A DNA stretch of 64,000 bases from Paratrimastix pyriformis. Its lineage: Eukaryota; Preaxostyla; Paratrimastigidae. The position numbers and the translations under genes were made by a program. Under the pieces are notes generated by a model, which ran no database searches, was not told the DNA's origin, and was given only the letters and a program-made list of their open reading frames with translations. Below, in pieces: positions 17,063-48,320 of the stretch (position 1 is its first letter; each line of letters begins with the position of its first letter). The DNA is taken from positions 777,001-841,000 of the forward strand of contig JAPMOS010000001.1 of the NCBI GenBank assembly GCA_027972325.1. The letters run 5' to 3'.

Positions 17063-17135
17063 TGGAGCTGAGGGGTATCGATCCCCTTGCCTCCCGCATG
17101 CCATGCGGACGATCTACCAAGTGATCTACAGCCCC
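17063..17135 (-). tRNA. tRNA-Ala(GGC), copy 1
   Basis: A 73-nt cloverleaf. The 7-bp acceptor stem GGGGCTG/CAGCTCC contains G3:U70, the alanine identity pair. The D stem is GATC/GATC with G18G19, the anticodon stem TCCGC/GCGGG encloses loop ATGGCAT (anticodon GGC), and the T arm AGGGG/CCCCT has loop ATCGATA as in eukaryotic tRNA-Ala. CCA is not encoded and there is no intron. It sits between the stop of the F-box/LRR gene (17207) and the start of the unknown helical gene (16875). It is identical over all 73 nt to the copies at 20502 and 48248. Confidence 0.95.
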
Positions 17136-17155
17136 GAATACGAAGTTCGTATGAT

Positions 17156-17172
17156 CCGCGGCATCATCATTT
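17156..17172 (-). promoter_or_regulatory. Conserved tRNA-Ala upstream box, copy 1
   Basis: AAATGATGATGCCGCGG, starting 37 nt upstream of the mature tRNA. It aligns with boxes at the same position before the other two tRNA-Ala genes (consensus AARTGAYGATGCMRCRG, 12 of 17 positions invariant), while the remaining flanks differ. It is probably a Pol III upstream promoter element. Confidence 0.6.
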
Positions 17173-17206
17173 CCGTGGACAAAGCACGTGTGCGGGTCTA
17201 TTTTTC

Positions 17207-19432
17207 TTACTCCGGCTCCTCTGGTGCCACAAAACGCGTGGGGTCAGGGGCCGCTAAGATCAGGGGGCACCACCCCCGGAGCCAATCGACTGCACGTTGA
17301 GCAAACGTGCCCCCGACAATCCTCGTGAGGCGGGGGGTGTCCCGCGGCACCCGGACGGAACACGATTGCCGGCGCGGGAGGATGCGGATCGACTCGAGCG
17401 CCGGGGCCCCGGGGCCATGGAGCACCAAGTCGGAACCACCACGGACGGTCAGTGCGCGCAGGTTGGGCAGCGCGGGGAACTCGGACCCAGCAGACGGGGT
17501 GTCGATCAGCAGAAAGACATCGAGGGCGACTGACGGCGGGGGGATCGCCAAGATCTCCCCCAAGGTCCCCAATGGGCATTGCATGCGGAAGTCGACGGCC
17601 AGTCTGCCCAGGCGCGAGACAAAGGGCCTCCTCAAAAGGGCGCCCAGGGGTTCGAGATCCGTCTGGTGGGCCACCCGGAGGGCCATGGTGCGCAACGCGG
17701 CCAGGGGAACCTCCTCCGCGAGCTCGCCAAAGGCGCTGGTCACGGGCATGACCAGGGTGCGCAGCAAGGGGGTGGCCAGCGTCAGCTGGGTCAGACTCGC
17801 GGCATCGACAATCCAGAGGTCATGCAGACGCGGAGCTTGCACGGCGCAGATCCGGCACCCGCGAACGAAGACGGACTCCAGCCCGGCGCCTGTGATGGTC
17901 ACGGGCTGCAGCTGGCACTGCAGGGTGAGCTGGCGCAGCGAGGGCGGTGCTGCGAACTGAGTGGCGGGGGCAATCGAGCGGAGATCGACCGAGGCCAGCC
18001 GGGGCAGGGCGGCGAACAGCGCCTGACACTCGGCATCGGATGTGATCCTGACCCTGGACAGCTCCACCAAGTTGGGCATCTCGCGAAGGACGGGCAGCAA
18101 GAAGGTGGCGGGGCGCAGGTCGGAGTGGTAGGAGTTAAACGCGAGCGAGGTCACGCTGCTCAGGGCTCCATCAGCTTGCAGCGCCACCGCCGAGAAGTGC
18201 TCCAGGCATCGGAGGCGCGGGCACTGGCGCACGGTCAGGGTCTTGACGAAGAGCAGGGTGTCGACCAGCTCCAGGGCGGGCAGCCCTTCCAGGGTCAGAC
18301 AGATGCGCTTGTGGAAGACGTCAGACGAGGCGCGCACCCGAAACTCGCGGAGGCAGGGAGCTCCCGTGAGGCACAAGTCCCGGTCGCTGCCTTCCCGGGG
18401 TAGCGCGAGGTGGAGAACGGTCAAGCGGCCGAGGAGCAGGGGCCCGGGGGGCTCGTGGAACCCGACCAGCTTGCGCAGACGGGGCATCCGTTCGATGAGG
18501 GACACCAGAGCCGCGTCCGGAGGCTCCGCCAAGTGGATTTCCTCCATGGTGGCCCCGCTGGATAGGTAGCGCTCGATCTCGGTGGAGCGCCCCACTTGGA
18601 CCTGAGCGAGGTTGTGCGCCACGGCCGCCAAGTCGAAGGGGGAGAACACCCACTGAGGCCACTCGGCCACGGTCACCGAACGCAGCCGAGACGGATTGGG
18701 CAGCAGCCTGAAGTCCGCGAGGGGCGTGCAGCCTAGCCAGTTGGGCGAGGGAGTGGGAATGTCACAGGGCAGGTCGAGGCGCTCGAGAGATGCCAGGTGG
18801 GGTAGAAGCCCATTGAGGGTGCCCACGGACTGCCGAAATATGCCTAGGGTGAGCTCCGCCAGCCAGGGCGCACAGGGGATGAGCCGTCGGCAGTCCACGG
18901 GGCACCCGCGCAGGGAGAGGGCCCGCAGGTGGGAGAGGCGGGGCAGAATATCGTAGAGCCAATCGATGTCCTCCAGAGTGACGGTGAGCTCCTCCAGGGA
19001 GGGAGCCACTCGTTCCAGAATCCGCGCCAGGGCACAGCGGCCCAACCCCGCGGTACAATCTGCCACCAGGGAACGGAGCGTGGGGGCCCTGGTGGCGGGA
19101 AAGGCAATATCCACCCAGCCGGCAGACTCCCGAAGACAGCCCGTCAATTCCATCGCCAAGTTGAGGGATTGGAGGTCGCAGCAACGACTCACGAGAGTGG
19201 CTAATGTCTCCACGGGCAACAGTGGCTCGGGGAACTCGGTGGGAACTCGTTCGAGAGAACCATCATGCTTGATGGGAACCGAGAAATTCATCTGCCGAAT
19301 TGTTCCGAGGAAGTGAGCGCGAGTCTGATGATTGAGCGCAATGAGATTACAGTAAATGCGTAACGTGTGGGCCGAAGCATATTCCAAAATCAAGTCAAAT
19401 AGTTCGGGTGGAAGATCACAAAATACAAAAGA
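17207..19432 (-). CDS. F-box/LRR protein, essentially intronless
   Basis: About 740 residues in one open frame. The N-terminus reads DLPPELFDLILEYA, a typical F-box start, then irregular leucine-rich repeats to the end (RCCDLQSLNLAMELTG, LEELTVTLEDIDWL, LRALSLRGCPVDC, LASLERLDLPCD, LRQLTLQCQLQPVTI). F-box/LRR proteins recruit substrates to SCF ubiquitin ligases, the LRRs binding the target. No ATG precedes the F-box in frame: the reading frame opens after a TTAG at 19433-19436, so a short 5' exon is likely; internal Met at the MNFSVP position would lose the F-box. The lack of introns contrasts with nearly every neighbour, which could mean a retroposed or recently expanded family. Confidence 0.68.
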   Translation of the reverse strand, partial: SFVFCDLPPELFDLILEYASAHTLRIYCNLIALNHQTRAHFLGTIRQMNFSVPIKHDGSLERVPTEFPEPLLPVETLATLVSRCCDLQSLNLAMELTGCLRESAGWVDIAFPATRAPTLRSLVADCTAGLGRCALARILERVAPSLEELTVTLEDIDWLYDILPRLSHLRALSLRGCPVDCRRLIPCAPWLAELTLGIFRQSVGTLNGLLPHLASLERLDLPCDIPTPSPNWLGCTPLADFRLLPNPSRLRSVTVAEWPQWVFSPFDLAAVAHNLAQVQVGRSTEIERYLSSGATMEEIHLAEPPDAALVSLIERMPRLRKLVGFHEPPGPLLLGRLTVLHLALPREGSDRDLCLTGAPCLREFRVRASSDVFHKRICLTLEGLPALELVDTLLFVKTLTVRQCPRLRCLEHFSAVALQADGALSSVTSLAFNSYHSDLRPATFLLPVLREMPNLVELSRVRITSDAECQALFAALPRLASVDLRSIAPATQFAAPPSLRQLTLQCQLQPVTITGAGLESVFVRGCRICAVQAPRLHDLWIVDAASLTQLTLATPLLRTLVMPVTSAFGELAEEVPLAALRTMALRVAHQTDLEPLGALLRRPFVSRLGRLAVDFRMQCPLGTLGEILAIPPPSVALDVFLLIDTPSAGSEFPALPNLRALTVRGGSDLVLHGPGAPALESIRILPRRQSCSVRVPRDTPRLTRIVGGTFAQRAVDWLRGWCPLILAAPDPTRFVAPEEPE

Positions 19433-20460
19433 CTAACGGCAGAGAAAAAAATAACAAGATGGAGCAGCTCAAAAAAAGAATAATTCCTTTAAATAAAACC
19501 GACCATTGTTGGTGTTCGTTCGACCAGATCCAGGGGGTAATATACGTTATCACGGGGGTGGTCACGGGTTCAAAAAGCGGCCGAGAAGTTTGAAACATAC
19601 CGTACCCAGTAGTTCTCCCGCCCGGGGCCCCCGGGCCTTTTTCTGACCCCAGGAGTCACCTGGGCCTGGGGGCTCGTAGTGGCGTTTTGCCTTTTGGTGC
19701 AACGCGGGGTCACCGTGGGGGCCCGACGATGGGTGCCATATCCGGTGCAGCCTCGGCTATATGGTTGTACCCAAACGCCCCGCAGTGCGGACGATACCTC
19801 TTCCAAAAAGAAATCCGCCGAAGGGTCGAAAAAGGTTCTACCAGGTGGCGAACCATGTTTGATGGAAAAAATGATCAACTGATGTCAAAATCCGATGCGG
19901 GCATCAAATCGCAATTCTCTATTCGCCAACACAATACTCACATACCCCTCACAGAAAAACAGCATTCAAACTGATTCCTCGCCCGTGCGGCGCCCGAATT
20001 TACCGCCATCCTGGAAAAGCGCGAGAAAACCATCCAGCTTGGTGGGACAGACTGAAACGTGAAGGTGGATCCCATTTTCGAGAGTCGATAACGGGCTGAT
20101 CGTCAAAGTGGGCAAGATGATCCATGAGGCTACGGCACCAGATCAGCGTTTTTAACCCAAATTTCAATCATAAGTTGTTTTAAAATAGCCCTGCGAAGGG
20201 CGGAATCAATGTCAGAAGGTTGGTTGTCAACTCGATGAACGCACAGCATTATTGATGCTCCCCACAGAGAACGGCTCGGGCGAATCGCCCAATTCCGCGC
20301 CATAGGAAGAAGAGCATCCCATCTTGATTTTTGATGGTTGTCGTGGTCAGCTTCGGTGGCAGTGGCCAAGTCAGCCGGAAAAATAGCTCGTGACCACCCC
20401 CGTGTCAACGTATATAACCCCCTGGGACCAGATCGTCAGAGGTTGAACATGCTATCTCTC
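19433..20460. other. Gene-free, AT-richer region
   Basis: No convincing coding exon. The region holds short stop-rich frames and a 7-bp inverted repeat followed by T5 (20095-20153, listed separately). A TATATAA motif lies near 20410, upstream of tRNA-Ala copy 2. A GTTATCACG...GGGTTCAA stretch near 19540-19575 recalls tRNA arms but does not fold. Confidence 0.4.
20095..20153 (+). ncRNA. Possible small Pol III transcript
   Basis: GCTGATC (20095-20101) pairs perfectly with GATCAGC (20141-20147), closing a 39-nt interior, and T5 follows at 20149-20153. It is too short for a tRNA and has no B box. It is listed only because it lies in a gene-free stretch 350 bp before a tRNA gene. Confidence 0.2.
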
Positions 20461-20477
20461 AAGTGACGATGCCGCAG
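20461..20477 (+). promoter_or_regulatory. Conserved tRNA-Ala upstream box, copy 2
   Basis: AAGTGACGATGCCGCAG, starting 41 nt before the mature tRNA; matches the boxes of copies 1 and 3. Confidence 0.6.
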
Positions 20478-20501
20478 AACAGCAAATCAAAAAACAAGTT
20501 C

Positions 20502-20574
20502 GGGGCTGTAGATCACTTGGTAGATCGTCCGCATGGCATGCGGGAGGCAAGGGGATCGATACCCCTCAGCTCCA
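20502..20574 (+). tRNA. tRNA-Ala(GGC), copy 2
   Basis: Same 73-nt sequence as copies 1 and 3 (G3:U70 acceptor pair, anticodon GGC, B box GGATCGATACC), in the gene-free 19.4-21.9 kb region and in the opposite orientation to the other two. Confidence 0.95.
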
Positions 20575-21888
20575 ACCGAAAAAACTTTTTGTGTGGCGGC
20601 CCCCGTGTACCTAAGGATTGAAAAAGGGTACCCATGTTTGACGCCCTTCCGGTCCCCACCGCCTCCCACCCGTCCACCGAAGGCCCAATCCAGTATGACG
20701 AGGCTGAGTGGGGCTACACACTGGTATCTTGGGTTCCCTTCCAGTGGGGGTCGGGGGGATGGTGGCACCACACAGAAGTATCGGGGGGTCAAGGGGCCCA
20801 GGGGCCCTTGGGGTTAGGTCCGTCACCAGATGGGGGGATGCAGCCGTCAGGTCAACGGGGGCCAGGGGGCAAGGGGTGAGGAGGTGTGGCGTGTCCAACG
20901 CAAGGCGAGTTGGATCTGCCACTCGGCAGGGTGTCGCGTTTCCAGGTGAATCATGAGACCTCCCGGACACCCACCTCCCCACGATGCGAACCCCTCGATG
21001 GGGGTGATCCGGAGCGGGCTGCCTCTTTCAACCGGCACCCTCGCGAGCCCCGTGTCCCGAGATCCTGTCGAAGGATCAGTGGCCCATCACACCCTCCGCG
21101 AACCCGGACCTGGTCATGGTGATGGGGCAGGGGTGCAAAACAAGTTGACAGGGGAGGCGAGGGCCGGGCCAGCCAGGGGGCGCAGGCGGGGCGGCCGGGC
21201 TTCCCCTGGGCCCCGAGGGGAGGGGACACTCGAGTGACTGCGACGACCTGGGGGCGTGGCACTGGGTTCAGCCGGCCAGGAGATGGACCGAGTGATGACC
21301 AACACCCTTCGGACGACCCCCCAGTATGGCACCGGGGCAAAGTCAGAGGGGCCCTGCAGCGGGGGCCGGGAAGTCAATGGTCTTGTCTCGTAATAATGTA
21401 GCAAGGGGGCCTTCCCTCAACGTACCGAGGGTGTTTGGGCTCCCCCACGAAGCACCCGAGCCGCTTCGAGGTCAAAACCTGATATCGACCATCGATGTCT
21501 TGTGTGGTCGCAGGTCGGACTCGATCGCTGGGGATCAATTTCACCTTGTGTCTGTTGAATAAGACCACTGGGACGTCCGAACGTCAAGGGAGATTTTCGT
21601 TCGCGGCCCCTTCAAACCGGCATAACGGCGGGCACAACACTGTCAAAATTTCAAATTTTTCAAAACCTTAGGTACTAAGGGGGGCGATCATGTCATTGTT
21701 TGCCTCGGGTCATGGTCGGGAAGGGTCATGGTCGGGAAGAGTCGTCTCTCTTCTTCGCCACCCCTCCCTCCCTTCGGCGCCCTGCACAGCCCCGACGCCT
21801 CCCAATATTGTCGTTCGGCGCTTTCCGCTCTGGGTGGGGCTGCGACTCGACCAAGCCCAGCTGTTTTGGTGGGGCTGTGACTCTTCCA
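20575..21888. other. Unassigned 1.3-kb region
   Basis: Mixed-composition sequence between tRNA-Ala copy 2 and the PAXBP1-like stop. The longest frames (20611-20982 minus, 20951-21340 minus, 21326-21562 plus) match nothing I recognise and show no convincing intron pattern. I see no terminal repeats or target-site duplication, so a decayed element or lost gene is possible but unsupported. Confidence 0.35.
20586..20590 (+). terminator. Pol III T5 terminator of tRNA-Ala copy 2
   Basis: T5 starting 12 nt after the tRNA 3' end. Confidence 0.8.
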
Positions 21889-24800
21889 TCAGCGCCCGGA
21901 TGGGGGCGCGGGGACGGCGGCCCTGATGGCGGCGCAGAGGGCCCTCCAGCGGGCCTCCTGGGCAGCTGCGGGCAGGCGGGCCGCGGGCCACTCGGGGAGC
22001 AGGTCGAGCAGCTCCATCACGGGCGATCCGGCCACGGGCCGGACCAGGTCGGCGGGCAGGGCCTCCACAAGCTGCCATCCACCCAGCCACCCGTGTAGCC
22101 CATCCATCCCCTGGCGGTGAGCCGGACGGCTGTTGGGCGGCGGGTGGCGGCAGCGAGCCCGGCGGATGCGGGGGGCGGACCTTGAGGGCCATGAGGGGCC
22201 CGTAGGGGACGGCCTCCTCGCGGAGGAGGCGCAGGTAGGGCACCAGGGTGGGCGCCACCAGCCCCCGGACGAGGACCTCCTGCAGCGCGTCGGCGCTCAG
22301 GTAGTCGCTGAACAGGCTCGCGTTGGTCACGAGCTGGCCACAGATGAACCCGCGTGAAATGTGTGAGTGTGAGTGAGTGTGAGTGAGTGTGTGTGAGTGT
22401 GTGTGAGTGTGTGAGTGTGTGTGTGTGTGTGTGGACGGGACGCGGGCGAATCGCAGCGGGGAGGGCTCGGGAGGGGGCTGCCGCCCGCCCGCGACGGGGA
22501 AGAGCGGCAGCCGGCAGGCCCGCACGGCTCCGTGGAGGCCGGATGAGGGACAGGAACGGCGGTGAGTCGGGGGGTGCGGAGGGACTCGGTGACCTCGCCC
22601 TTGGAGAAGACCAGCATGTCCTGCAGCAGGGCGACCACCTTCCCGGTCTGCAGCGGGAGAGCCCGGCGGGGCGTGGGGTGCGGGGCGGGGCGGGATGGCG
22701 CACCAATGGCGGTGAGTGGTGGGGCGGCGCCGGCGATGGGGCACGGCAGAGCGGCGGGGCGCATGGGGGATGGCGGCGGATGCGGACCTGGCTGGCGGAG
22801 TGCGGGTCGTAGACGCCCCGACCACCTCGCAGACGATGGGCAGGGCCACGTGCTCCACCAACAGCGGAATCAGGTTGAGGTCCTCGTCCGGGGCGGCCTC
22901 CTCCTCCGGGGCACCGTCCTCACGTGCCCACACGCCCCGCCCCCGAAATGCCGCCCCCGCAAGTGCTGTTCGTCAGATTTGGCGGCCCCATCATCACTGC
23001 CCTCCCATCATCAATGTCCGGGCTGCCCTCCCATCATCGCTGTCCGGGCTGCCCTTCCCGGTCCGGGCTGGCGAAGGGCAGTGCTGGAGGGGTGGAAGGG
23101 GGGGGGGGGGGGGGGGGGGCAGACCGTGGCGGGGCTGGGGCTGGCGGCGCGGCTCCCTCCCGGGTGCCGAAGTCGAAGAGGGTCCGGAACCAGGCGAACT
23201 GCTCGAACTCGGTGGCCCGGAGGGGGTTCCACCCGAGCAGCTCCAGCCGGACGAAGGGCGCGAAGAGCCCCGGGGCCGACAGCGAGACGAAGGCCTCCCG
23301 GTAGCTCTGCGGGAAGGCGAACTTCCACTCCTCGAGGCGGGCCTTGAGGGCCTCCAGCGAGCAGAACTCGGGCAGGGTGTCCTCGAACAGGGCCCGCCCC
23401 TCGCGCAGGATGGCCGCCTGTCGCTCCTGGTACCGGCGGGGCGAGAGGAACGGGTGCGCGGGGCCCGCCGGGGCCGGGCACGAGGGGTGCAGCAGGGCCG
23501 GCGGGCAGGGGGGCGGCAGGGGGCCCGCCGCGGGCAGGGGCAGGGTGTCCTCGTTGTCGTCCGTGTCGGAGCCCGACGACCAGCCCCCCGGGTAGAAGCT
23601 CTGCCCCATGCCCATCCCCATGCCCATCCCCATGCCCATCCCCAGGCATCGCACCCAGCCCACCCGCGGTCCGAGTTGGCGGACGGGAGGAGGGGAGCCA
23701 CGAGGTCGCACACATCCGAACGAACCACCACGTGCACATGGGGCAGGGCAGAGGGCAGGGCAGAGGGCAGGGCAGAGGGCAGGGCAGAGGGCAGGGCAGA
23801 GGGCAGGGCAGAGGGCAGGGCAGAGGGCAGGGCAGAGGGCAGGGCAGAGGGCAGGGCAGAGGGCAGGGCAGAGGGCGGAGGGCAGGGCGGAGGGCAGGGC
23901 AGAGGGGCAGGGCAGGGCGGGTGACCTGGGGGAGCGGGGCCTGTGGCGGAGCCGCCATGCGGCAGAGCTCCCCGTGGTCGGCCGCCCGGTCGCGGGGCGA
24001 GGGCGGCTTGGGCGTCGGGGCCGGGGAGGCGCCGGGCGGGGGCGGGGGCGGCGTCGGGGGCGGGGGCGGCACGAAGCCCGGCTCCAGGAGCGGGTCGCCC
24101 AGCCGGCCTGCCCGGGGGACGGAGGGAGGGAGAGAGGGACGACGGGAGGGACGGAGGGACGGAGGGAGAGGAACCTGAGCGTGTTGCTCGCTGCGGGTGG
24201 GGTGGCAGGCGCCCCGCGAGGCGGATGGCCGGGAGGCGGCGGGGGACGTGGTGGTGGTGGAGTAGGGAGGGAGGGAGGGGGTCGCCGGGACCTGCCGCGA
24301 GGGCCATCTCGTCGATCTCCTGGGCGACGAGGGCCTGACGGCGCTCCTCCTGGGCGGCCCGGTAGTCGCGCCGCAGGGACCACATGGCCGTCTCGAACTG
24401 CTCGATCTCGGGGCTCTGCGGACACCAACCCGGCCGGGGCCCCACCCGCACACCCCCACCATCCCAACCATCAGCCCTCGGGCACATCGTCCGGCGGAAG
24501 GGGGGGGCGGGGGGCAGGGGCAGGGGGCGGGGCGGGGCGGGCCTTCTTGTCGAGGCAGTCGAAGAGGTCGTCGACGTACTGGCGCATCTGCTGGAAGAAG
24601 AGGAACTCGGTGTTCTGCCGGGCCAGCTGGGCCGTCGACTCCTCCACCACCCGGCTCGCCTCTCTGCCCCCCGCGCACAGAGCCCAAACCCGGCCCACCG
24701 CCCGAGGTCCCGCATGAGCCACGGAGAGGGCCAAACGAGGGCTGGGTGCGGGGGGTTGCGAGCGTGGTCTGGGGTGGGGAGGGTGACCTTGAGCTGGACG

Positions 24801-25312
24801 TCGATCCGGTCGCGGGCCCTGCCGTCCTGCTCGGAGTGGGTCTGCATGGCCCCAGGGCCCGCTCCAGGGACTGGGTGATCTCCTCCACGCTCGTCGGCCC
24901 AGCCACGGGCTGCGGCTCTGCAGGCGGACGAGGAATGCGAGGAAGGCGGATGGAGGGGGGAATGGGCAGGTTGCTGCTGGGCGGGGGGGGGGGGGGGGGG
25001 GGGGGGGTCGCGCGAGGGGATGGTGGGGCCCGGGGCGGAGGGGGCTGCCGACCGTCGTCGCGGCTCAACATGGGGTCCTCGTCGACCGAGTGGCCCCGGC
25101 CCGGCTGCTGGCGGGGCGGGTCCGGTCCGAGCCGGGCGGACCCCAGCCGTCAGGCGGCGGCCCAGCGGGACGGAGGGCTCCGAGGAGCGGGTCGGGGCCG
25201 GGGCAGGCGGCCCGCCGCGGCCATCTTGGCCATCATGGCCACACTGACGCCCGCCTTGCGGAGCTGCTGCGCCTCCCAGTCGTCCTCGTCATCCGACCCG
25301 CCCGCCTGTGGA

Positions 25313-25347
<35 letters not shown>

Positions 25348-26926
25348 AGGGAAGGGAAGGGAAGGGCCCAATGGAGCAGAAGAGTGTCAACCCCGGGAAA
25401 TGTGGGAAGGCGTGTGCGCGGGTGTGCGCGGGTGTGCGCGGGTGTGCGCGGGTGTGCGGGTGGGTGGCGGCAGCGGCGGACCCTCCTGTCGCGCCGGGCG
25501 GGGTCGTCCTCTGGGGGGATGTCCTCCTCGGGCCCGGCGTCCTTCCGGCCGAAGACCTCCTCCAGCCCCAGCACCCGCGGCTGGCCCACGGGCTTGATGG
25601 TGGACCCCCCGAAGGCGATCCGCGGGCCCCGCTCGTCCTCCAGCGCCTCTGCGCACCCACAGTGGCAAACAGGCGCCCGAGAACAGCAGGACGGCACCCG
25701 ATCCGATGAGAACAGCAGGACGGCACCCGATCCGATGAGAACAGCAGGACGGCACCCGATCCGATGAGCTTCCGCCAGCCAGGGGGGGGGGAGACCTCGG
25801 CCCGAAGGAAGGGAGGCGGGGCGGGGCGAGGCAAGGCTGCGGGCCTTCCTCGGCGTCGTCGTCGTCTTCGCGGACGAGGCGCGACTTGCCGGCGGCCGCG
25901 GCGGCCTTGGCGTCGCCTGGCGGGCTCTCCTCCAGGTCGATGTACTCCGCCACGGCGCTCTGGGCCTGCATCCGGCGCACGTCCCGCTTGCCCTTGGCCA
26001 ACTCCACGTCCTGCTCCGCCACGCGCCACCAACCCGCAGATGGGACGGCGATGACCCGGGGGGCATGAGACGACGCGGGCCGAGACAAGGGGCTGGCGCC
26101 CGGTTGGAGGCGCGGTGGAGGGTGGATGGGGAAGAGAGAAGGGGAGGGCGAGCTGGGGGCCAGACCAGGGCCGACGGGATGGGCAGCCGAGAGGGCGAGA
26201 GGGCCATCTCGGTCGAGAGGGCCCGTTGGTCTGCGGGGGGGGGGGGGGGGGGGGGCAGGGCAGCCGGCCCGGGGAAGAAGAAGAAGGCGGGGTGTGAGGG
26301 GTGTACAAAGAGGGGATGAGGACGAAGATGGCCACAGAAAGCGGGCGGATTTGCGGGGCCCGCGGGGCGGACCCTCATTTCCCTGGCCGGTGGGCTCGTC
26401 CTCGTCCAGGTTGATCGTGGCCGGGCTGCTGGCGGGCCCCTGGGGCCGCCGGGAGAGCTCCTTGGCGTCGAGGAACTCTTCTTGGGGCGTGGCGGGGGCA
26501 AGGTTCGAAGGGGGAGCTCTGCGGATGCTCTTCTTCTTCTTGGGTTTGGGCAGGCCCTTCTGGACAAAAGGCCCATCAACCTCAGCCTGACATCAGAAGA
26601 ATGTCAAAGTGAGCCACTTTGAAAGAGAAGGGTTAGATCAAACTGACCTCATCGACGTCAAAACTCAGGCGATTTCGAGCCGGTGGGGAAGGGGCTGGAG
26701 CAGGAGAGGCCTTTGGGGTTGGCGATTGCGTTGGCGATGGGGCTGGTGGGGGAGTGGAAACGCTTTCAGCGATCGAATCTTCACCTTCGCCATGCTTCCT
26801 GAAGCTCTTCTTCTTTTTTGGGGCAGAGGGGGTCTGACTGTGCGAGACCGGTTCCTGTGGGACCTGCTGCATCTGTGCAGCTTCCCTCTGGGGTTCCAGT
26901 GGCTCCCGCAGGTTTCGCTCGCCCAT
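21889..26926 (-). CDS. PAXBP1: PAXBP1/GCFC2-like splicing-associated protein
   Basis: Many exons follow the GCFC family in order. A basic/acidic N-terminus is spliced DVDE|AEVDGPFVQKGLPKPKKKKS; then KSRLVREDDDDAEEG, GPRIAFGGSTIKP, DDEDDWEAQQLRKAG, SVEEITQSLERALGAMQ, FFQQMRQYVDDLFDCLDKK, EWKFAFPQSYREAFVSL, FAPFVRLELLGWNPL, FEQFAWFRTLFDFG, DLNLIPLLVEHVALPI and a helical C-terminus ending PAPPSGR at TGA 21889. Human PAXBP1 and GCFC2 and yeast Ntr2 associate with spliceosome/lariat-disassembly factors, fitting an intron-rich host. Start ATG 26926 overlaps the ATG of the divergent F-box gene. At least four introns carry 21-32-base C-runs (sense), and others carry a GT-rich array (22345-22434), a 12-bp array (23742-23912) and a 29-bp triplicate. 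Confidence 0.85.
22345..22434. repeat. GTGTGA/GTGAGT-type simple repeat
   Basis: GT-rich array in a PAXBP1-like intron. Confidence 0.85.
23742..23912. repeat. 12-bp GGGCAGGGCAGA tandem array
   Basis: About 11 copies, decaying at the right end, in a PAXBP1-like intron. Confidence 0.88.
25315..25346. repeat. 32-base G homopolymer (C on sense strand)
   Basis: The longest homopolymer in the window. On the sense strand it reads C32 then CTCTCCACAG, i.e. it forms the pyrimidine tract of a PAXBP1-like 3' splice site. Confidence 0.9.
25411..25460. repeat. 10-bp GGGTGTGCGC tandem repeat
   Basis: About five copies in a PAXBP1-like intron. Confidence 0.85.
25681..25767. repeat. 29-bp unit repeated three times
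   Basis: Three perfect head-to-tail copies (25681, 25710, 25739) in a PAXBP1-like intron. The unit starts GAACAGCAGG and ends ATCCGATGA. There are no spacers between copies. Confidence 0.92.
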
Positions 26927-28165: not shown

Positions 28166-28235
28166 GGACCAGTCGAAACGGCTTCCCGGGCTGAGCCGCC
28201 TGTGCAACATCCTTCTCTGAAGTGGGGCGGCCTCT

Positions 28236-28913: not shown

Positions 28914-29217
28914 TGCTCTGGGTGCTCAACGACTCCGGCGAAGGCAGATTTGAACTGCACGAGAAGAGCAGTTTTTTTCTTCGACACGGGTGGGACCTGC
29001 TTGATCAACCGCGCTCAGAAATTGAGGATGAAATTGGATGGGGAAACGGAAGGGAACAGAATCAGAAGGACCTATCACCCCCACATAAAGGCCTCAGCCG
29101 GCGGCAAAAGACCGTTCAGCTCGAGTCCCAGACTGCTCACTCAACGACAAAAAATAGTCGACTTTTTTCTTTCTCCCTTTCTTTCTTCACTATTTCCCCA
29201 CAGCGGCAAAAACAGAT
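28914..29217. other. Intergenic region, no gene seen
   Basis: The 304 bp between the GET2-like start and the PTAR1 stop (both minus strand) contain no supported feature; the GET2-like promoter should lie here. Confidence 0.45.
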
Positions 29218-34848: not shown

Positions 34849-34879
<31 letters not shown>

Positions 34880-35154
34880 TCGTTCGTTCGTTCGTTCGTT
34901 CGTTCGTTCGTTGTTTCGGTTTTTCTCTGCGTGTGGGACGTTGACGGCTCGTCCATCTTCCGCCCGGTTTCCCTTCCTCCTCCGTCTCTTTTTCCTTCCC
35001 TGCCCCGGGGCCGTTAGCCGACTTCTCTGGATGATCGGCATCGACATCGCTTGTTTTCCTCAGTGGCAAGAGAGTGCCTCGCACCCGTCGATCCGGGGGG
35101 GGGGGGGGGGAGGGGGAGGGAGGGGGGGGGAGGGGGCTCCCGACCTTCGCGCGG
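34779..35154. other. Intergenic region between convergent genes
   Basis: Apart from a TTCG array and a 16-base G-run (35095-35110) I see nothing here. Confidence 0.5.
34828..34912. repeat. (TTCG)n tetramer array
   Basis: About 20 TTCG/CTCG units between convergent genes. Confidence 0.9.
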
Positions 35155-36501: not shown

Positions 36502-36510
36502 TTGCCCCGG

Positions 36511-39256: not shown

Positions 39257-39335
39257 AACAGAATGCCCCACCAACCACTATCGAAACCCCAAGGAGGGAG
39301 CGCAGATGAGGCGGCTGAGTCTCTTTCGAACAAGT

Positions 39336-40552
39336 TTACTTGGAGGGGACGTCCCAGATGCGGATGTTGCCATCGGAGTAACCAGCGAACAGGTGCAGGC
39401 CATCCTCGGAGAAGGCGACGCTCAGGCAGCGAGGCATCTTGTTGGGGGTCTCGCCCTCAAGCTCCTCAGACTGGAGCTGGAGCTCAACAACGAGGGTCTT
39501 GGTCTCAAGGCACTGTTGATGCAATTGATTGAGTGAACGGATGATGACCTGAAATACAGACCCAGATCTTAATGCCGGAGTCGCAGGCGGTGATGAGCCA
39601 ATAGCGGGCAGGGGAGAAGACGAGGTCGTTGATGATGTCGCCGCAGTCGAGGGTGAAGAGGTACTTGCCCTCCTGGAGATCCCACAGGTTGCAGGAAGTG
39701 TCCTTCCCGCCAGAGGCGCAGAGGGAACCATCGGGGGAGATGGCGACGGCGTTGATGTAGCCAGTGTGGCCCTCCAGGGCGGTCTTGAGCTGGCAGGTGT
39801 TCTTGTCCCAGACCTAGACATGAAAAACAGAATTAAAAATCGAAACAAACGGAAGCACACAGACCCGAACAAGACGATCATAGCCGGCGGTGACGAGGCA
39901 AGTGTCATCGGGGCGAGGAGAGAACTTGGCGGAGGTGACCCACTCAGTGCACTCCTGGATGGTGTACTTGCACTCACCCAGAGTGTTCCACAGCTTAATG
40001 GTCTTATCGCGAGCACCAGAGACGATCTGACGGTTGTCAGGGGAGAAGGCGACGCAGAGGACATCCTAGAAAAGAAACAACAAATGTCAGCAATCGGCAG
40101 CGCACTTTGGTGGAACAGACACCCTGGTGGTCACGGAAGAGCTGGGTGGAGACACCGGAGTTGATGTCCCACAGGCGGAGGGTCTTATCCCAGGAGGCGG
40201 ACAGGGCGTACTGGCCATCAGAGGAAAGAATGACATCCTCAACGAAGTGGTTGTGGCTAGAGCAGAAATGAGGATGGTAAACTCGGTAAAGAATAAAACG
40301 AACCCAGTCATACGACGACGGGGGACGAAGGGGAGAGCGTCGTGCTCAGTGCTGTCGTTCAGAGCCCACATCATGACGGACTTGTCTACAAGGGAAATGC
40401 TCGACCGATGACAGGCCAAAAGAAAAAAACAAACCGCGAGAGCCAGAGATGATGAGATCGTTGGTGGCGGCAAGGGAGGTGACCCAGCCATCGTGGCCGC
40501 GCAGAACACCCTTAGGAATGCAAAGAGCCGCAGCTGCCTCAGTACGCTCCAT
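39336..40552 (-). CDS. RACK1: RACK1, 40S ribosome-associated WD40 scaffold
   Basis: Six exons: 40552-40435, 40385-40304, 40256-40121, 40065-39865, 39813-39562 and 39512-39336. They total 966 nt and give a 321-residue seven-blade propeller. Diagnostic segments are [78 protein letters not shown] and [18 protein letters not shown]1 sits on the small ribosomal subunit near the mRNA exit channel and docks signalling proteins. Introns are 47-55 bp with donors GTTTGT, GTTCGT, GTCTGT, GTCTGT and GTCTGT, and none contains a repeat. The coding sequence is less GC-extreme than its neighbours, as expected for a highly expressed gene. Confidence 0.97.
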
Positions 40553-41220
40553 TCTTTAAGAACCAATTTGTCCGATTCAAAATCAAATTTCAATGAAGCC
40601 AACCATGAAGGAAGAGAAAGGGAAAACTCGAATGAGACCACGGCCCAGCATGCTCAAAGCGTCAGACCTAAAAAGCGCGCGCGAAAGGGCCTTCAACCCT
40701 GGAGCACCTCCCACAGAACTTGTTTGTTCCCGACGCACGTACCCCGTTTCATCCTCGCCCTTCGACTTTTTCTCAACGATACATAGCAAAAAGCCTTTCT
40801 TTTTCAATCCTAAAGCAATCCAATCGTCTCAGACCAACACATAGGCCACCATCATCATGATTCTCGTTCCTGGGGGTTCCTCGCTTTCAGCCGGGGCAAA
40901 TATAATGTGATTCCATTACTCGCATGATCGGGATTGCTGTTTTTTGGCTGAGTGATAGACCATTTCCGGATCATTAAGGGCAGACTCAACCAAAGAATAG
41001 ACCATTGCCACCGCTGTGTTCACCCTTCTTCCTTCTCCCCTCCCCACCTCTCGTGGCCTCCCCCTCCCGCCCCCACTCCATCACCTCTCCGCTGCTCTCC
41101 TCCCATTTCCGCCTCTCCGTTTGTTTCTCGCAATCGACCAGAATGCCATCGTGCCATCCGAGTGATTCGGGCCGTTTTCGAACGAGTAGGACTCCTCAAC
41201 ACGTGACCTTTGACTGCCGG
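40553..41220. other. Divergent promoter region (RACK1 / FAD oxidoreductase)
   Basis: The 668 bp contain no supported gene. They are AT-richer than the flanks, with pyrimidine-rich stretches near 40730-40800 and 41020-41120. I see no RNA gene or repeat. Confidence 0.45.
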
Positions 41221-43915
41221 ATGACTTGGGGGAACGTCACCACCACCTGGATGCTTGCAAATTCAGCGTTAGGGTGGGTCCTCATCGCACCCCTATGGGC
41301 CACCTTGTGTCAGTTTTGCGCCGCAGCTAACGCTCAGCCAACAAGCACAGCCATTACCGATTGTTCTCTGGTGATCGCAGGAGGTACCACCGCTGCTCTC
41401 GCCGCTGCCATCTCTGCCGCCAAATTCAACACATCAGTTTGTCTCTTGGAGCCCACTGATTGGGTTGGTGGCCAGATGACAGCCAGTGGAGTCAGCGCAA
41501 TCGATTTCGCCTGGCACACCCTGACGAATCCCACCACCAAGTTTGTCTACCCCGTGTATAAATATGCCCGCCAACGGGAGAACTTGACACCCCTCTTCAC
41601 GGAACTTGTGAGCGCCGTGGGGGACCCCGGCCGGTGCTGGGTCTCGACCAACTGCTACTCCCCGGGTCTGCTGCTGGACAAGGTGCGGCCCCTGCTGGCC
41701 GGGCTGCCCACCCTGCGGGTCTTCTACAACACCGTGCCCAAGCGGGTCACCGTCCGCCAGAGCCCGGGCGCGGGCGACCAGACGGTAACGCTGACCTCGC
41801 TGACGGCCATCCAGCGGACCCCCACCCAGGGCGACGGGTCCGCCCCCGACCCCGCCGCCCCTGTTCCTCCCGGCCTCCACTCGCCACACATGATGACGGT
41901 TGTTTCGTTGGGGTGGTGGTGGCGGTGGCGGCGGCGGCGCGATGGCGCAGGTACGACCGGACCCTGTCGGAGGACCTGGCCGACTGGTACTCGGAGCGGC
42001 CCTCGGCCCGCTTCGACAAGCGGCTGCTGGCCTTCCAGCCCGCCGCCCCCGGGCAGGACATCCTCTTCATGGACGCCACCGAGTGGGGCGAGCTGCTCGT
42101 CCTGAGCGGGGCCCCCTACCTGCAGGTCGCATCCCGCTCCCCCCTTCCATCCCCCCTCCTCCCCTCCCGCACGCCGAGCATGCCTGCTGACATCCGGCAT
42201 CCCCCGCCCGGTGGCCCCGCAGGGTGTGGCCGAGCGGTACGACGGGGACATCTCGGGGCTGGGCGGCAACGAGACCTGCGGCCAGTCGGCCACGTACGGC
42301 TTCTCGGAGCGCCTCAACGCCGACCCGCAGCCCGAGCCGCCCAACCCGCGGCCACGCGACTTCGGCTCCTTCTTCAACTTCCAGGGGTACACGTCCGCCC
42401 CGCCAGCCACCCTGACGACGCGCCCCCACCACCGGCGCACGTGCCCCTGCTGCTGCTGTGCTGCTGCTGCTGCTGCTGTTGTTGTTGTTGTTGTGCCCGT
42501 GCACCGTCCCATGGCGCGTGCTGCGCTGGTGTGGGTGGGCTGTGGGGTGAGCGCAGATGGGACAAGATCTTCACCTACCGGCGGCTGGTGGGCGGGGGGA
42601 CCAACCCCACCACGGGCGACCTGACCCTGCAGAACTGGAGCGGCGGCAACGACAACGCCTTCGCGTACCTCTTCCTCGACAAGCAGACCGCAGCCGCCCA
42701 GGTCCGCCCCCCCGCCATACCCGCCCCCCTGGCGATGGAGAGGCGCCCCATGGCAACCGCGGCCCCATCATGTGTCGTCTGGTGATGATGATGATGATGA
42801 TGGCGGCGGCGGCGGCGGCGGCGGCGGCCATCCTCCCCTGCAGGCGGCCAGCGACTGGCGGGGCGGCGTGTCGGTGGATGCCCTGGCCACGGGCGAGGCG
42901 CTGGCCTACGGGTGGCACTACTACTACAAGGCCCACGCGGACCCCGGGGACCGGCTGACCCTCGACCGGGCCACCTGGGGCACCGCCACGGGCCTGGTCA
43001 AGGTGCCCTACATCCGCGACACGCGCCGCTCGGTGGGCCTGGGCGGGTTCGTCATGCGGGTGGCCGACATCAGCGGCTGGCCCGACCCGGCCGGCAACAT
43101 GACCGGCCTCGCCTACCCCGACCGCGTCGCCCTCGGCTGCTACGGTCCGCTCGCCGCCTACGCCCCCCCCCCCCCCCCCCCCCCCCCCCGCTCACCCGAC
43201 CCCCCCGCTCACCCGACCCCCCCGCTCACCTCCGCCCGACCCCGCTCACCTCCATCCGGCCAGACGTGGACACGCACCCGTCGCCCAAGGGGTGCCCCAT
43301 GCCGGGCCACATCGGCCAGTACTACCCCATCCTGCCCTTCTTCGTGCCCCTGCGGGCCCTGACCAACGCCCGGGTGGGCAACCTGCTGGTCGCCGGCAAG
43401 ACCATGGCCCAGAGCTTCCTCACAAACTCCGTCCGCCCTGCCCTGCCCTGCCCTGCCCTGCCCTGCCCTGCCCTGCCCTGCCCTGCCCTGCCCTGCCCTG
43501 CCCTGCCCTGCCCTGTCCTGCCCTGCCCTGCCCTGCCCTGCCCTGCCCTGTGCCCTGCCCTGCCCTGCCCTGCCCTGCCCTGCCCTGTGCCCTGCCCTGC
43601 CCTGCCCTGCCCTGCCCCATCGCCGCCCATCGCATCCCATCCCATCCCATCGCCGCTGCCTGCTGTGGTTCGGCTCTGCCTCGCTGACGTCCCGCCTGTT
43701 GGGGACCTGGCGGGGTGTCCCTTCAGGCGACCCGGCTGCATCCGACCGAGTGGTCCACCGGGGCGGCGGCCGGGGCGGTGGCCTCCTTCATGCTGCAGGC
43801 GGGCGTCCACACCACGGGCGACCTGTGGGCCGACCACCTGGCCCAGGCCCAGATGTGGGCCGCCAAGGCCACCCCCGCCCGCTGGACCATCGAGGGCCGC
43901 CTCTACCCCCAGTAG
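41221..43915 (+). CDS. Secreted FAD-dependent oxidoreductase (FAD_oxidored family)
   Basis: An N-terminal signal peptide from ATG 41221 (hydrophobic core to CAAANA) precedes a dinucleotide-binding fold: DCSLVIAGGTTAALAAAI, CLLEPTDWVGGQ and SGVSAIDFAW. Later conserved parts are FDATEW-like LFMDATEWGELLVLSGA, GSFFNFQGY, LQNWSGGNDN, VKVPYIRDTRRSVGLGGF, GHIGQYYPILPFFVPL, NLLVAGKTMAQSF, RLHPTEWSTGAAAGA and a C-terminal LYPQ before TAG 43915. The end matches the FAD-closing part of this flavoprotein family; the substrate is unknown. At least six introns interrupt it, holding a CTG/TTG run near 42450, a 27-base C-run (43163-43189) and a CCCTG array (43435-43616). An ATG at 41143 in the same frame would mask the signal peptide and is less likely. 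Confidence 0.8.
43435..43616. repeat. (CCCTG)n pentamer array
   Basis: About 35 copies in the last or penultimate intron of the FAD oxidoreductase gene, with a few TG/GTG interruptions. Confidence 0.92.
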
Positions 43916-43942
43916 GCCGCCCCCCCCAGCCGCCAGTGCGGC

Positions 43943-44070
43943 TCCCCTTCGCCTCCACGTCCTCGTCGCCTCTCTTCTTCGCCTTCACATCCTCGTCGCA
44001 GTCGCCTTCACATCCTCGTCGCAGTCGCCTTCACGTCCTCGTCGCCTCTCCTTCTCCTCGTCGCATCTCT
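43943..44070. repeat. CTTCACATCCTCGTCGC-type imperfect repeats
   Basis: Imperfect copies of a pyrimidine-rich unit just after the oxidoreductase stop. Confidence 0.7.
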
Positions 44071-44214
44071 TCTTCGCCCCACCCGACGAGCGTTTGTATG
44101 AATAGCTGGTCCGACGTTGAGCGTTCCCACCGCCACGACTGATGGTCCGCGGAATCTGCTCGCCCCGCCAAGGGAACGGCAGGGGAGGGACGACAGGGGG
44201 GGGTGGGGGGAGGG

Positions 44215-44365
44215 GGGAGGGACGACAGGGGAGGGGACACGACAGGGGGAGGGACACGACAGGGGAGGGACACGACAGGGAGGGGACACGACAGGGGAGG
44301 GGACACGACAGGGAGGGACACGACAGGGGAGGGACACGACAGGGAGGGGACACGACAGGGGAGGG
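44215..44365. repeat. GACACGACAGGGGAGG minisatellite
   Basis: About ten copies of a 15-16-bp unit (GGGA number varies) between the convergent oxidoreductase and MORN3 genes. Confidence 0.88.
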
Positions 44366-44649
44366 ACGACGGGGGATCGAGGGCAGCATCCGTGGCGCCC
44401 ATTCCACACGGGGCCCATGGCACCGCACGACGGTAGCCCCAGGTCCCCGCAAGCCCATGGCGGAACCGTCGGGTGGCGGCGCCCGGGAGGCGGAGACGGA
44501 GGCGAGACGAGGAGGAGGAGGAGGATGAGGGAGGGGGGGAGGAGGAGGAGGGAAGGATGCGCGGGGGGAATCGGGGACCCGCTTCTGCCCACCCACACGG
44601 GACCCGGGCTTGGGGGAGGGGGGGGGAGGGGTCGGCCCGGATGGCGCCC

Positions 44650-46225
44650 TCACTGCTTGGCCAGGGCCCGTGCTTGCTGCAGGCACCCACCGTCCCACCC
44701 GCACAGTCAGCCGGAGCTTGGCACAGCGCGGTCCCCAGGGGTGGGGCGGCAGGGGTGGCGGGCGGGGCGGGCGGGGCTGGCGGGGCTGGCGGGGCGGGCG
44801 GGGCGGGGCGGGCGGGGCGGGCGGACCTGAGAGAGCTTGGCCCGCTCGAGGGCCTCGGCCTCCTCGCGCTGGGCGGCCTCGATGCGCGCCTGCTCGGCCC
44901 GGGCATCGCGCTCCCGCTGCTGGACCTCCTCCAGGTAGCGCCCGTACTCGCGGCTGTCCATGACGGCCTCCCCGAGCACCTGCGCATCCCCGGAGGGGCA
45001 GCCCGAGTGCAGGCACCCACGGGAGGCGGCGATGAGGTCGGGCCGGTGGGTGCGGGAGGGTGGCGTCGGGGAGGGGTCCCGCGCACCTTGTCCGGCTCGG
45101 CCAGCTGGAGGGCGGGCAGGGCGGGCGAGGGCTTGCGGATGCTGTCCTCGGAGGGCGGGGGCAGGGCCGGCGACTGGGCGGCCCGGGCCGAGACGGCGTC
45201 TCCGCCGGGGGGCAGCAGGCCGGGCGGCGGGTTGGGGACGCAGTGCTCCGACTGGTAGACGCCGCACTTGGGCACCCCCTGCACCCACTCGCCCACATAC
45301 TTGCGGTGCTGCCAAGGGGCCGAGGCCACACCCCACGGGGGAGGTGCGATGAGGCGGGTGGCAGGAGGCCTTCCAAATGCCCCCTCTCCAAGGGACAGCT
45401 GCGGGCCGCGGGGGCGACGGGGGAGGGTGGGGTGGGACCTTGGGCGGGTAGTAGAAGACCCCCGAGCCGTGCTGCTGGTCGTCGGCCCAGGCGCCCTCGT
45501 ACCGGTTGCCGTCGGCTGTCCTCACCCCACCCAGTGTGCCGCCCGATACAGCCCCGTCAACGCCGGCCATCGGGAGGGCGAATCCGAGAAGGCAGGGGGG
45601 CGGCGCGAGGCGGACCCTTGTACAGGGTGCCCTGGCCCACCCGGAGCCCGTTTTCCCAGTGCCCCACGTAGCGGGTGCCGTCCTGGTAGTACATGGTGCC
45701 GAACCCGCTCCGCTTGTTCCTGCCCCAGATCACGGGAAAGATCAACCGGATGGATGCGGCAGGCTGCCAGAGGGCGCAGGGGCACAGACTGCAACCACTC
45801 GCCTTCGTACTGCTCGCCGTTCTCGTAAAAGTAGGTGCCGTACCCCTCCATTCGGTCATCGACCCAGTCCCCACTGTACACAAGTCTCATGTTGCCTCCG
45901 CCAAGGTCATCGTCTGCGCAAAGTTTGGTCACGTCCGCCGAGGCAGGAAGAGGCACAGACCTCGGGATGCCGTAGCGGTTGTTCCGGTGGCCGGGACGAG
46001 GAAAAGACCGTGACCGTGACGCTTACCGCCCTTCCAGCTCCCGTCGTAGCGGGAATGGTCTGGGTATTCTTGGGTTCCCTTCCCTTCTCGCATGTTGTGA
46101 TCCCATTCACCCGCATATTTCACGCCACCGCTGAAAAAAATCGTCGAACGCATACCGGTTTTGTTCGCCATCTCATCGGCAATCCGCCAGATGCGCTGGT
46201 TTGGGGCGAGCTGGGGAGGGTCCAT
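44650..46225 (-). CDS. MORN3: MORN3-like MORN-repeat protein
   Basis: MORN repeats spread over several exons match MORN3 in order: [112 protein letters not shown] and [19 protein letters not shown]-terminal coiled coil follows ([16 protein letters not shown]...ALERAKLSQ), which an intron full of GGCGGGGC repeats (44755-44825) joins to a final exon QARALAKQ ending at TGA 44650. MORN3 is a flagellar/testis adaptor; MORN repeats bind membranes or dimerise. The start at ATG 46225 gives [10 protein letters not shown] before the first repeat. It lies 110 bp downstream of the transglutaminase-like stop on the same strand. Confidence 0.85.
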
Positions 46226-46335
46226 AACGGAAATGCAGTAGAGAGAACCACTTGGGGTTAGAGAATAATCATTTCTTGGGGCCGGAATGATTGAGCAAGA
46301 GAAGTTCGATAAATTATGAACGAGGGAGAACAAAT

Positions 46336-48204
46336 TCATTCAGTGTCGGTCGCGAGATCTGGTTCCAGATCGGCAGGTGACGGCGGAGGCGGAGGAATCT
46401 CGTTTATCCAGTCGATCAGGTCGAGATCTGCCCAGGCTAAGACCGATCCTTCTCGAGCCGACCAGCACTGTCGACGAACAGGCGCAACGGCCTGCGCAAT
46501 CTGCCCCCTGGCCAAATCGACCGGCCAATTGGTGGTGTTGGTCGGCGGGGGCGGTGGTCGACTGCAGCATTCGCATTTCGGGTGGGCATGCCGGAGGCCC
46601 CACTTGGAGTACCCCTGGTCCATCGTCAGCACGACCGGGGCAAACGACGGGTCCACGACGTAGGTGCGCAGAGAGGGTAACAACGTCACCTCAAGCCACG
46701 TGTGGTCGTCACAGGGCCTCGGGAGCCCATCGGTGCCTGCGAACGGATGCCCGGTAGCTGGGTCCAGGTCGCGGCCCTCCTCGATGAACCAACCCGCCCG
46801 GAAGCGCACCTGGCCGGGCCCGATGGAATCGTGAGCGTGGTTGTCAAAGATGCGAAGGAGAATGGGGAGCGCGAACCTCGAGGCCCAGGCTGCGGGCGAA
46901 GGGCATCAAGAGCGCCGCCACCACCGAGGCCACCGTGTGGCAATGGCCCTGGCCGTGGTGGGCCAGGCGGCCCACATCGGGGCGCCCAGAGCGCCCCTTG
47001 TCGAGGCCGGTGTGTACGAAGTGGGTGCAGTCCATGACGCGGACGAGCTGGGCGATACACCGGAGCTGCTGGGCCACCACCGGGTGGAGGGGCTCCCTCG
47101 AGGGGGCCACCCAGGGGTGCAGGGGCTCCGCGGCCGTGGCGGCGGAGGCTGGGGGGGCGCAGTAGGTGGGCGGGGTGGATGCCGGGTCGGCGGCCAACTC
47201 GAAGTGGAGGTCTCCGACGAGGTGACGGATCGCCAGGGCCGCCTCGACCATCTGGGTGATGATGCGGGTCGGTAGTAGTGAGACCGGCAGTGGGACTTGC
47301 ACCAGGTGGCGAAAGTGGGGGGGCGAGACGGACCTTGGCCCGGGTGAGGAAATCGCTGTACTTGCAGCGGATGCCATCCTCGAGGAGGCAGCCCTCCCGA
47401 GCGGGGTCCCCCTGGAAGGCCGTGGGCTGGTTGAGCGCCACCACCTCCCCCAGGGCCACGTCCATCGCGAGAGCGCCCGCCGCCCCGGGGAGGTCGACCG
47501 CCACGCGGATGGTGCCCTGGGCCTGGCCGGCCCCGAGGACGGTCGCCCGGTGGGTGGTCTCCAGGGTCCCCATCGGAGGCGCCGCGTACGCGAGCCAGTC
47601 GGGCGCGTCGGGGTGGGCCGACCAGATGCTGGCTTGGACGGTCGTCTGCGGGGCATCGAGACGGGGCATGTCCGAGAGCCCGAGGTCAAGGGTGGGCGGG
47701 TGGTGATGGGAGCGGCTGACCCTGACGAGGACCTGGCGGCCCGGGAGGTACCGCGGGAAGGCGTCAAAGGGGATGGTCTGGTCGACCCCGCTGGGGGGCC
47801 GCGGCCAGATGCCCCACCGGTGCAGATCCTGGGCCGTCGTCCGGTAGGGCAGCAGCACGGGCAGCGACCCGAACAGGGCCACCGCGTCGGGGCGAAGTCC
47901 TGCATCCACCAGGGGAGCAGGGAGCGGGCGCGGATGGTTGGGGTGAATGGCCGAGGGGCAGGAGGGGCACCGCGTATGGGATCCTCTCCCCGCGGACCGC
48001 GGTAGTCGCCCCGGCCCAGGTAGGCCTCGTAGTAGGTCTGAGCCTCGCCCCGCCGGAGGAGCTCGTCGAGCCGGGCCACCGCCCACCGGGTCCGGGCCAG
48101 GGGGTCCCGCAAGGCCCTGCTCGAGGGGCGCGGGGCCGTCTGCAGGAGGGGGGGCAGCCACCCGGGGCTGCCCTCGGGGCCGCGGCGTCGGGGGCCGGCT
48201 GATA
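46336..48204 (-). CDS. Transglutaminase-like cysteine-protease-fold module
   Basis: The C-terminal half shows the Cys-His-Asp layout of the transglutaminase-like superfamily: GQGHCHTVASVVAALL, then DDHTWLEVTL, then YVVDPSFAPVV, with DNHAHDSIGPGQVRFRAGWF between. N-terminal segments include ARTRWAVARLDELLRRGEAQ, YYEAYLGRGDYRG, VALFGSLPVLLPYR, FDAFPRYLPGRQVLVRVS and a beta-rich part (GTIRVAVDLPGAAG). Stop is TGA 46336. No in-frame ATG exists at the 5' end: the first exon opens at 48204 just after a C21 run and CTATCAG acceptor, so it must be spliced to something upstream. The best partner is the exon ending near 48430 of the hydrolase module, which would put tRNA-Ala copy 3 inside the intron and make one fused gene 46336-50339. 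Confidence 0.65.
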
Positions 48205-48234
48205 GGGGGGGGGGGGGGGGGGGGGACACCAAAC

Positions 48235-48239
48235 AAAAA
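48235..48239 (-). terminator. Pol III T5 terminator of tRNA-Ala copy 3
   Basis: T5 on the transcribed strand, 8 nt after the tRNA 3' end. Confidence 0.8.
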
Positions 48240-48247
48240 GTAGAGGA

Positions 48248-48320
48248 TGGAGCTGAGGGGTATCGATCCCCTTGCCTCCCGCATGCCATGCGGACGATCT
48301 ACCAAGTGATCTACAGCCCC
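48248..48320 (-). tRNA. tRNA-Ala(GGC), copy 3
   Basis: Identical over 73 nt to copies 1 and 2. It lies between two minus-strand exons, 23 bp before a 21-base C-run and CAG acceptor, so it appears to be inside a protein-gene intron in the same orientation. Confidence 0.95.

Follow-up and report, generated by a model that had tools for sequence, protein, structure and literature searches.

The window analysed here, a stretch of 64,000 nucleotides (C1:777001-841000; C and L are our own labels for contigs and loci), belongs to the genome of Paratrimastix pyriformis, a metamonad of the Preaxostyla. It holds three genes for an alanine tRNA with the anticodon GGC, tRNA-Ala(GGC), each with a T run on its 3' side that resembles a terminator of RNA polymerase III (Pol III). 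In coordinates of the window, and with the basis of each assignment, the features are:

17063-17135, minus strand: tRNA-Ala(GGC) copy 1; anticodon 17100-17102, loop positions 32-38 (ATGGCAT) 17098-17104; ARAGORN, Rfam (51.7 bits), sequence
17049-17053, minus strand: T5 run like a Pol III terminator, 3' of copy 1; sequence
20502-20574, plus strand: tRNA-Ala(GGC) copy 2; anticodon 20535-20537, anticodon loop 20533-20539; ARAGORN, Rfam, sequence
20586-20590, plus strand: terminator-like T5 run, 3' of copy 2; sequence
48248-48320, minus strand: tRNA-Ala(GGC) copy 3; anticodon 48285-48287, anticodon loop 48283-48289; ARAGORN, Rfam, sequence
48235-48239, minus strand: terminator-like T5 run, 3' of copy 3; sequence

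An earlier note on this DNA had claimed three identical, completely folding tRNA-Ala genes with GGC at positions 34-36, a G3:U70 pair and a T5 terminator, and this observation is confirmed. ARAGORN and the Rfam family RF00005 set the same boundaries on the same strands, the Rfam score being 51.7 bits for each copy at a gathering cut-off of 29. Comparison over 73 nt found no difference between the copies, mapping of positions gave GGC at 34-36 and the alanine identity pair G:U at 3:70, and the T5 runs start 8 to 11 bases past the gene ends. Folding of the RNA of a window copy returned a complete cloverleaf at -30 kcal/mol. Because the folding z-score against shuffles was only -1.84, and 10 of 200 shuffles folded equally well, it is the match to the covariance model that counts as real evidence for a tRNA. 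Structural scoring, which the note had named as a possible refuter should it call pseudogenes, accepts the window copies in both programs.

The eukaryotic reader of GCC and GCU carries A34, and a genome-wide majority of tRNA-Ala(AGC) was the other outcome that the note had named as refuting its reading. The genome searched comprised 56,060,509 bases in 495 contigs (633 scaffolds, 56,627,582 bases and 60.94% GC are given for the published assembly in a passage of PMC10703272). A DNA search with the GGC gene yielded 49 candidates, 40 of which were scored: 12 were exact, one was exact over positions 3-73 and 27 had one difference. A pattern of 30 bases from the 3' half, running from the anticodon to the T arm with N34 free, matched 71 times (GGC 45, AGC 11, CGC 9, TGC 6). 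A pattern from the D arm to the anticodon AGC, with up to two mismatches, matched 57 times (GGC 41, CGC 9, TGC 6, one broken CGG, AGC 0); it stops at position 36 and is therefore insensitive to an intron after position 37. A third Ala pattern gave 44 matches, all with G at N34. The 45 GGC copies divide into 40 of full length and five broken at the 5' end (L085, L086, L088, L090, L091), none of the latter being called by ARAGORN, and position 59 is A in 29 and T in 16 of the 45. Such a number of copies goes far beyond chance. No tRNA-Ala(AGC) gene came from the two different patterns in the 56.06 Mb. As far as tested, then, 40 full-length GGC genes stand against 0 AGC genes, position 34 is G, and tRNA-Ala(GGC) looks like the only decoder of GCC and GCU in P. 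pyriformis, not an additional one; in this respect, and as to the bacterial-type pair 32-38 described below, the note had claimed too little.

The 11 AGC matches of the first pattern (L069-L079) were considered as a tRNA-Ala(AGC) family and rejected: inspection of every one showed a dispersed repeat, and ARAGORN called 0 of 11. Of the two copies submitted to Rfam (L069, L076), neither matched a tRNA with an E value of 1 or less. The surroundings are common to most copies, L074 differing upstream and L075 downstream, and L076 has a small deletion. Stretches like an A box and a B box and a loop-like motif, TTAGCAA, occur in this repeat, which is possibly a short interspersed nuclear element (SINE) derived from a tRNA. 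Two further loci are irregular. The CGG match of the second pattern (L089, C1:110140-110260) is a broken 5' half like that of tRNA-Ala(CGC), with CGG at the former anticodon site, and ARAGORN assigns an apparent tRNA-Gly(GCC) with an internal duplication (L060, 502-590, minus strand) to Met or to Ala(TGC) with an intron.

Bacterial contamination is rejected as a source of these genes. The window open reading frame at 17207-19432 (minus strand) has two P. pyriformis proteins, PAPYR_2500 (70% identity) and PAPYR_2459 (47%), as its only non-self matches, the third match being its own protein; moreover, the 45 GGC copies are spread over 32 contigs, several of them next to A34 tRNAs. Among ten window reading frames Pfam found two matches, FAD_oxidored and PPTA, the latter below its cut-off.

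The anticodon loop differs from that of the other alanine tRNAs of this genome: positions 32/38 are A/U in GGC and U/U in the CGC and TGC sisters, and eukaryotic tRNA-Ala(AGC) likewise has U32.U38. A pattern for bacterial tRNA-Ala(GGC) that left 32 and 38 free and fixed its other bases gave at least 126 matches in 120 loci, and among the matches listed 32-38 was Watson-Crick in 126 of 126 (A-T 84, C-G 41, G-C 1). Such a pair, which the P. pyriformis gene has as A32-U38, is regular in bacterial Ala(GGC) but not confined to it. Ledoux 2009 and Murakami 2009 are said to have described the tuned 32-38 pair in E. coli tRNA-Ala(GGC). According to passages of two papers, the pair lowers over-strong pairing with GC-rich codons (PMC6720975; PMC8266599). 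Passages of the second state that tRNAs with G34 cause miscoding and toxicity in eukaryotic systems, a single change at 32 or 38 relieving this in human cells (the work cited for it is apparently Pernod 2020), and attribute the toxicity to strong pairing, which bacteria restrain via bases 32 and 38 (PMC8266599).

The other boxes were viewed through a sample of loci scanned by ARAGORN, which held 107 tRNAs distinct by their 15-bp flanks and was non-random, its loci having been drawn mostly by matches to Ala, Gln and Ile tRNAs. Its A34 isoacceptors were Ile AAT 5, Leu AAG 2, Pro AGG 3, Ser AGA 2, Thr AGT 6 and Val AAC 2; G34 forms of Ile, Leu, Pro, Ser, Thr and Val were absent from these scanned loci, no genome-wide G34 search having been made for Ile, Leu, Pro, Ser and Val. 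Genome patterns gave AGT 29, CGT 8, TGT 4 and one degenerate GGT without an ARAGORN call for Thr, and ACG 34, CCG 8, TCG 2, GCG 2 and one chance-like match for Arg; these figures are pattern counts, the loci checked by ARAGORN being one ACG, one TCG and one TGT. An Arg pattern that assumed A37 matched one TCG only, Arg tRNAs having mostly G37. One tRNA-Arg(GCG) scores (60.3 bits; L108, C60:19150-19290, 44-116, minus strand) and is possibly a second G34 breach beside the main Arg ACG set of 34.

Deaminase domains lie at C146:523128-523739 and C190:146686-146967, the C190 match spanning one TAG. The best structure-chain match of the C190 translation was ADAT3 (E 1.7e-18); that of the C146 translation was a 'Deaminase, putative' (5.5e-11), followed by TadA and ADAT2 chains, and NCBIfam gave for both exons only TadA, below cut-off. 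On these matches, P. pyriformis has ADAT2-like and ADAT3-like exons. ADAT1 is the A37 deaminase specific for tRNA-Ala. Its domain, PF02137, had no match in the genome, nor in the control genomes, so that the result is uninformative and an absence of ADAT1 is not claimed. A34 is the main purine-34 form in the seven boxes sampled, ADAT2/3-like exons occur, and AGC is missing from the Ala genes found, so that Ala has apparently exchanged A34 for G34. The machinery for inosine seems to be in place, and Ala seems to be the one box that has abandoned it, save for the single tRNA-Arg(GCG).

Codon use was sampled in six of 13 tubulin matches. Three of them (L101, L102, L104) are alpha- or beta-tubulin by sequence reading, and L106, one base different from L101, was left out of the count. 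The 37 Ala codons of alpha- and beta-tubulin were GCC 34, GCT 2, GCG 1 and GCA 0; in two divergent tubulins (L103, L105) GCC made up 14 of 37. An F-box-like reading frame of the window had GCC 34, GCG 23, GCT 10 and GCA 7, and three pieces of alanyl-tRNA synthetase (AlaRS) had GCC 7, GCT 1 and GCA 1. Codons ending in C and U stood at 34:2 for Ala in alpha- and beta-tubulin and at 127:66 for seven A34 boxes (Fisher p 2.5e-4, codons treated as independent). This bias agrees with G34 reading of GCC and GCU, as support only.

We propose, with a probability of a little over three in four, that in P. pyriformis the inosine tRNA-Ala(AGC) has been replaced by tRNA-Ala(GGC), which would be the sole reader of GCC and GCU and carry A32-U38 as a fidelity-tuning pair. 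The genes would be transcribed by Pol III and the tRNA charged by AlaRS, G3:U70 being present; with no inosine involved, it would pair G34 with the C of GCC and, by wobble, with the U of GCU. By weakening the strong GGC:GCC pairing, A32-U38 would keep near-cognate codons from being misread, as in bacterial tRNA-Ala(GGC), and, because the loop matches that of the bacterial tRNA, we infer that the pair is what permits G34 in this eukaryote. The remaining Ala codons would be served by the nine CGC and six TGC genes. As to history, the changes A34G and U32A in a nuclear AGC gene, followed by spread through the family, are favoured. The broader statement, that a eukaryotic nucleus undid, in one box only, the ancient replacement of G34 by inosine, AGC being gone, A32-U38 having re-evolved, and ADAT and seven inosine families having been kept, is held with less assurance, as somewhat probable.

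Several observations weigh against this proposal. Watson-Crick pairs at 32-38 are shared by further tRNAs of P. pyriformis and of bacteria, and the reversal is therefore held slightly less firmly: other Ala tRNAs listed in the bacterial loci had U-A (2) and U-C (1) for TGC and U-A, A-U and A-C (one each) for CGC, Gly(GCC) listed in the same loci had U-A (4), and in Thr(AGT) of P. pyriformis U32 pairs with A38. The codon evidence is supportive only because the genes are few and related (three gene pieces, two of them beta-tubulins), because Pro (22:3) and Arg (16:3) lean to C as well, and because the G34 box Gly reaches just 47:18. Within the tRNA body, GGC has C15, where both sisters (CGC and TGC) have A, and T16; the eukaryotic set R15/A48 is thus represented in part, by A48. 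The genome carries repeats linked to tRNAs, and an AGC gene could fall outside both patterns or beyond the 56.06 Mb searched (495 contigs, against 633 scaffolds and 56.63 Mb in the published assembly).

The alternative that survives best, though it is unlikely, is horizontal acquisition of the GGC gene from a bacterial or organellar donor, its D and T arms having become eukaryotic afterwards by convergence or conversion. The anticodon loop is the same as in E. coli tRNA-Ala(GGC), the acceptor stem is identical to it at 13 of 15 positions as against 9 of 15 to the sisters (a further point against our proposal), and over the full length the T59 form is 55/73 identical to E. coli and equally 55/73 to both sisters. 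The D arm, however, is identical at 18/19 and 17/19 positions to the sisters and at 14/19 to E. coli. The gene has both A48 and A54, bases which, according to a passage of PMC7566577, are seen in tRNA-Ala of eukaryotes but neither of bacteria nor of archaea, and it contains the A54/A58 pair used there as a eukaryotic criterion; the T54 and pyrimidine 48 of bacterial tRNA-Ala(GGC) are lacking. A pattern joining the GGC loop to the A48/A54 T arm had 0 exact matches in collected genome and viral contigs, from which records near the own genome may be excluded. A48 and A54 thus mark what appears to be a eukaryotic tRNA-Ala body, and descent within the nucleus through A34G and U32A remains the favoured history.

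About half as probable, and improbable in its own right, is that the GGC genes are pseudogenes spread in the manner of SINEs or transposons, as proposed for the centipede Strigamia maritima, and that something else reads GCC and GCU. Precedents exist in passages of two papers: in Strigamia, 322 Ala-GGC sequences are mostly thought to be pseudogenes, perhaps linked to transposable elements (PMC4244043), which also tells against our proposal, and in cow no expression of Ala(GGC) loci was seen in muscle or liver (PMC8988405). In P. pyriformis itself, five of the 45 copies are 5'-broken, and the end of a dispersed repeat directly abuts three of these five by BLAST, a fourth (L091) having a similar look by eye. 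The full-length copies do not show the shared tail or flanks and accumulating mutations that mark tRNA-derived SINEs and pseudogenes: the 40 vary at position 59 (T or A) and, in one copy, in TT at positions 1-2, and nowhere else. The 31 with at least 300 bp of flank formed 7 similar pairs out of 465 upstream and 7 out of 465 downstream, and a run of A was present at one of 31 copies examined. A run of at least four T lay within 35 nt 3' of the gene in 30 of 30 GGC copies and 61 of 64 other tRNAs examined, the random expectation being 1299 of 20000 random 35-mers of the window; and no AGC gene was found that could do the decoding. The unrelated flanks stated in the earlier note are borne out by these figures, and the selected multi-copy family that it suggested is supported by them. 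An upstream motif, TGAHGA, preceded only 10 of 94 tRNAs examined, at scattered positions.

The repeat next to the broken copies occurs in L045 (C51), L061 (C179), L067 (C367) and L002 (C495) and ends near locus position 1370-1496. L045 and L067 are 97% identical over 0.7 kb, and similarity with L061 extends over about 1.5 kb. In L067 and L002 the repeat lies on the 3' side of intact GGC copies, at a distance of about 100-110 bp from the gene ends. It may be a mobile element that targets tRNA genes; Pfam gave 0 matches for five reading frames at the repeat.

Least probable of all, by a little, is that a functional tRNA-Ala(AGC), for example one with divergent T and D arms or in unassembled sequence, was missed. 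The searches were pattern-based, and Rfam scored 63 of 1695 candidates; against this reading, the same genes (9 CGC, 6 TGC, 40 full-length GGC) came from each of the two patterns, without an AGC tRNA among them.

Replacement of tRNA-Ala(AGC) by tRNA-Ala(GGC) would touch a rule described, in passages of PMC5372738, as pervasive: G34 tRNAs are excluded from eukaryotic four-codon boxes except Gly, human, yeasts and fly have no G34 Ala genes, and exceptions in several other boxes are met with in large tRNA gene sets such as that of cow. A passage of PMC8266599 describes the replacement of G34 by I34 in eukaryotes as unexplained. No report of tRNA-Ala(GGC) in Preaxostyla was found among the papers listed in searches of open-licence PMC text; passages of the P. 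pyriformis genome paper (PMC10703272) contain no discussion of tRNA anticodons, and those of PMC3923123, on anticodon shifts, and of PMC7050145, on Andalucia, nothing on Ala anticodons. If the replacement is real, it would amount to a test, made by nature, of the view that a lack of 32-38 tuning excludes G34 tRNAs from eukaryotes, and would lend this view independent evolutionary support, as G34 in a GC-rich box comes with a 32-38 pair that the Ala sisters lack. It would also offer a tractable system, in which one box is freed from ADAT dependence and seven are still dependent, and would indicate that a decoding strategy can shift while the genetic code stays unchanged.

Compared with known systems, the P. 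pyriformis genes resemble those annotated as Ala(GGC) in Strigamia and cow, as described in the passages cited above, in being multi-copy in a eukaryotic nuclear genome; those are mostly thought to be pseudogenes or were found unexpressed, whereas the P. pyriformis genes are near-invariant, have few similar flanks and occur where no AGC gene was found. With bacterial tRNA-Ala(GGC), represented by E. coli, they share the anticodon GGC, the loop ATGGCAT, G3:U70 and the Watson-Crick pair 32-38, whereas A48, A54, the D stem GATC and the V loop AGGCA are as in the eukaryotic sisters, and the genes are nuclear, dispersed and followed by T runs. Likeness to eukaryotic cytosolic tRNA-Ala(AGC) lies in G3:U70, A48, A54, U17 and purine 60, and in a copy number comparable to that of the main A34 tRNAs of P. 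pyriformis (pattern counts Thr 29, Arg 34); the differences are G34 for A34, A32-U38 for U32.U38, C15 for R15 and T16 for a purine. Eukaryotic tRNA-Gly(GCC), finally, also has G34 within a four-codon box, but the Gly exception is general in eukaryotes, and the P. pyriformis Gly(GCC) loop, TTGCCAT, has U32.U38 where Ala(GGC) has A32-U38.

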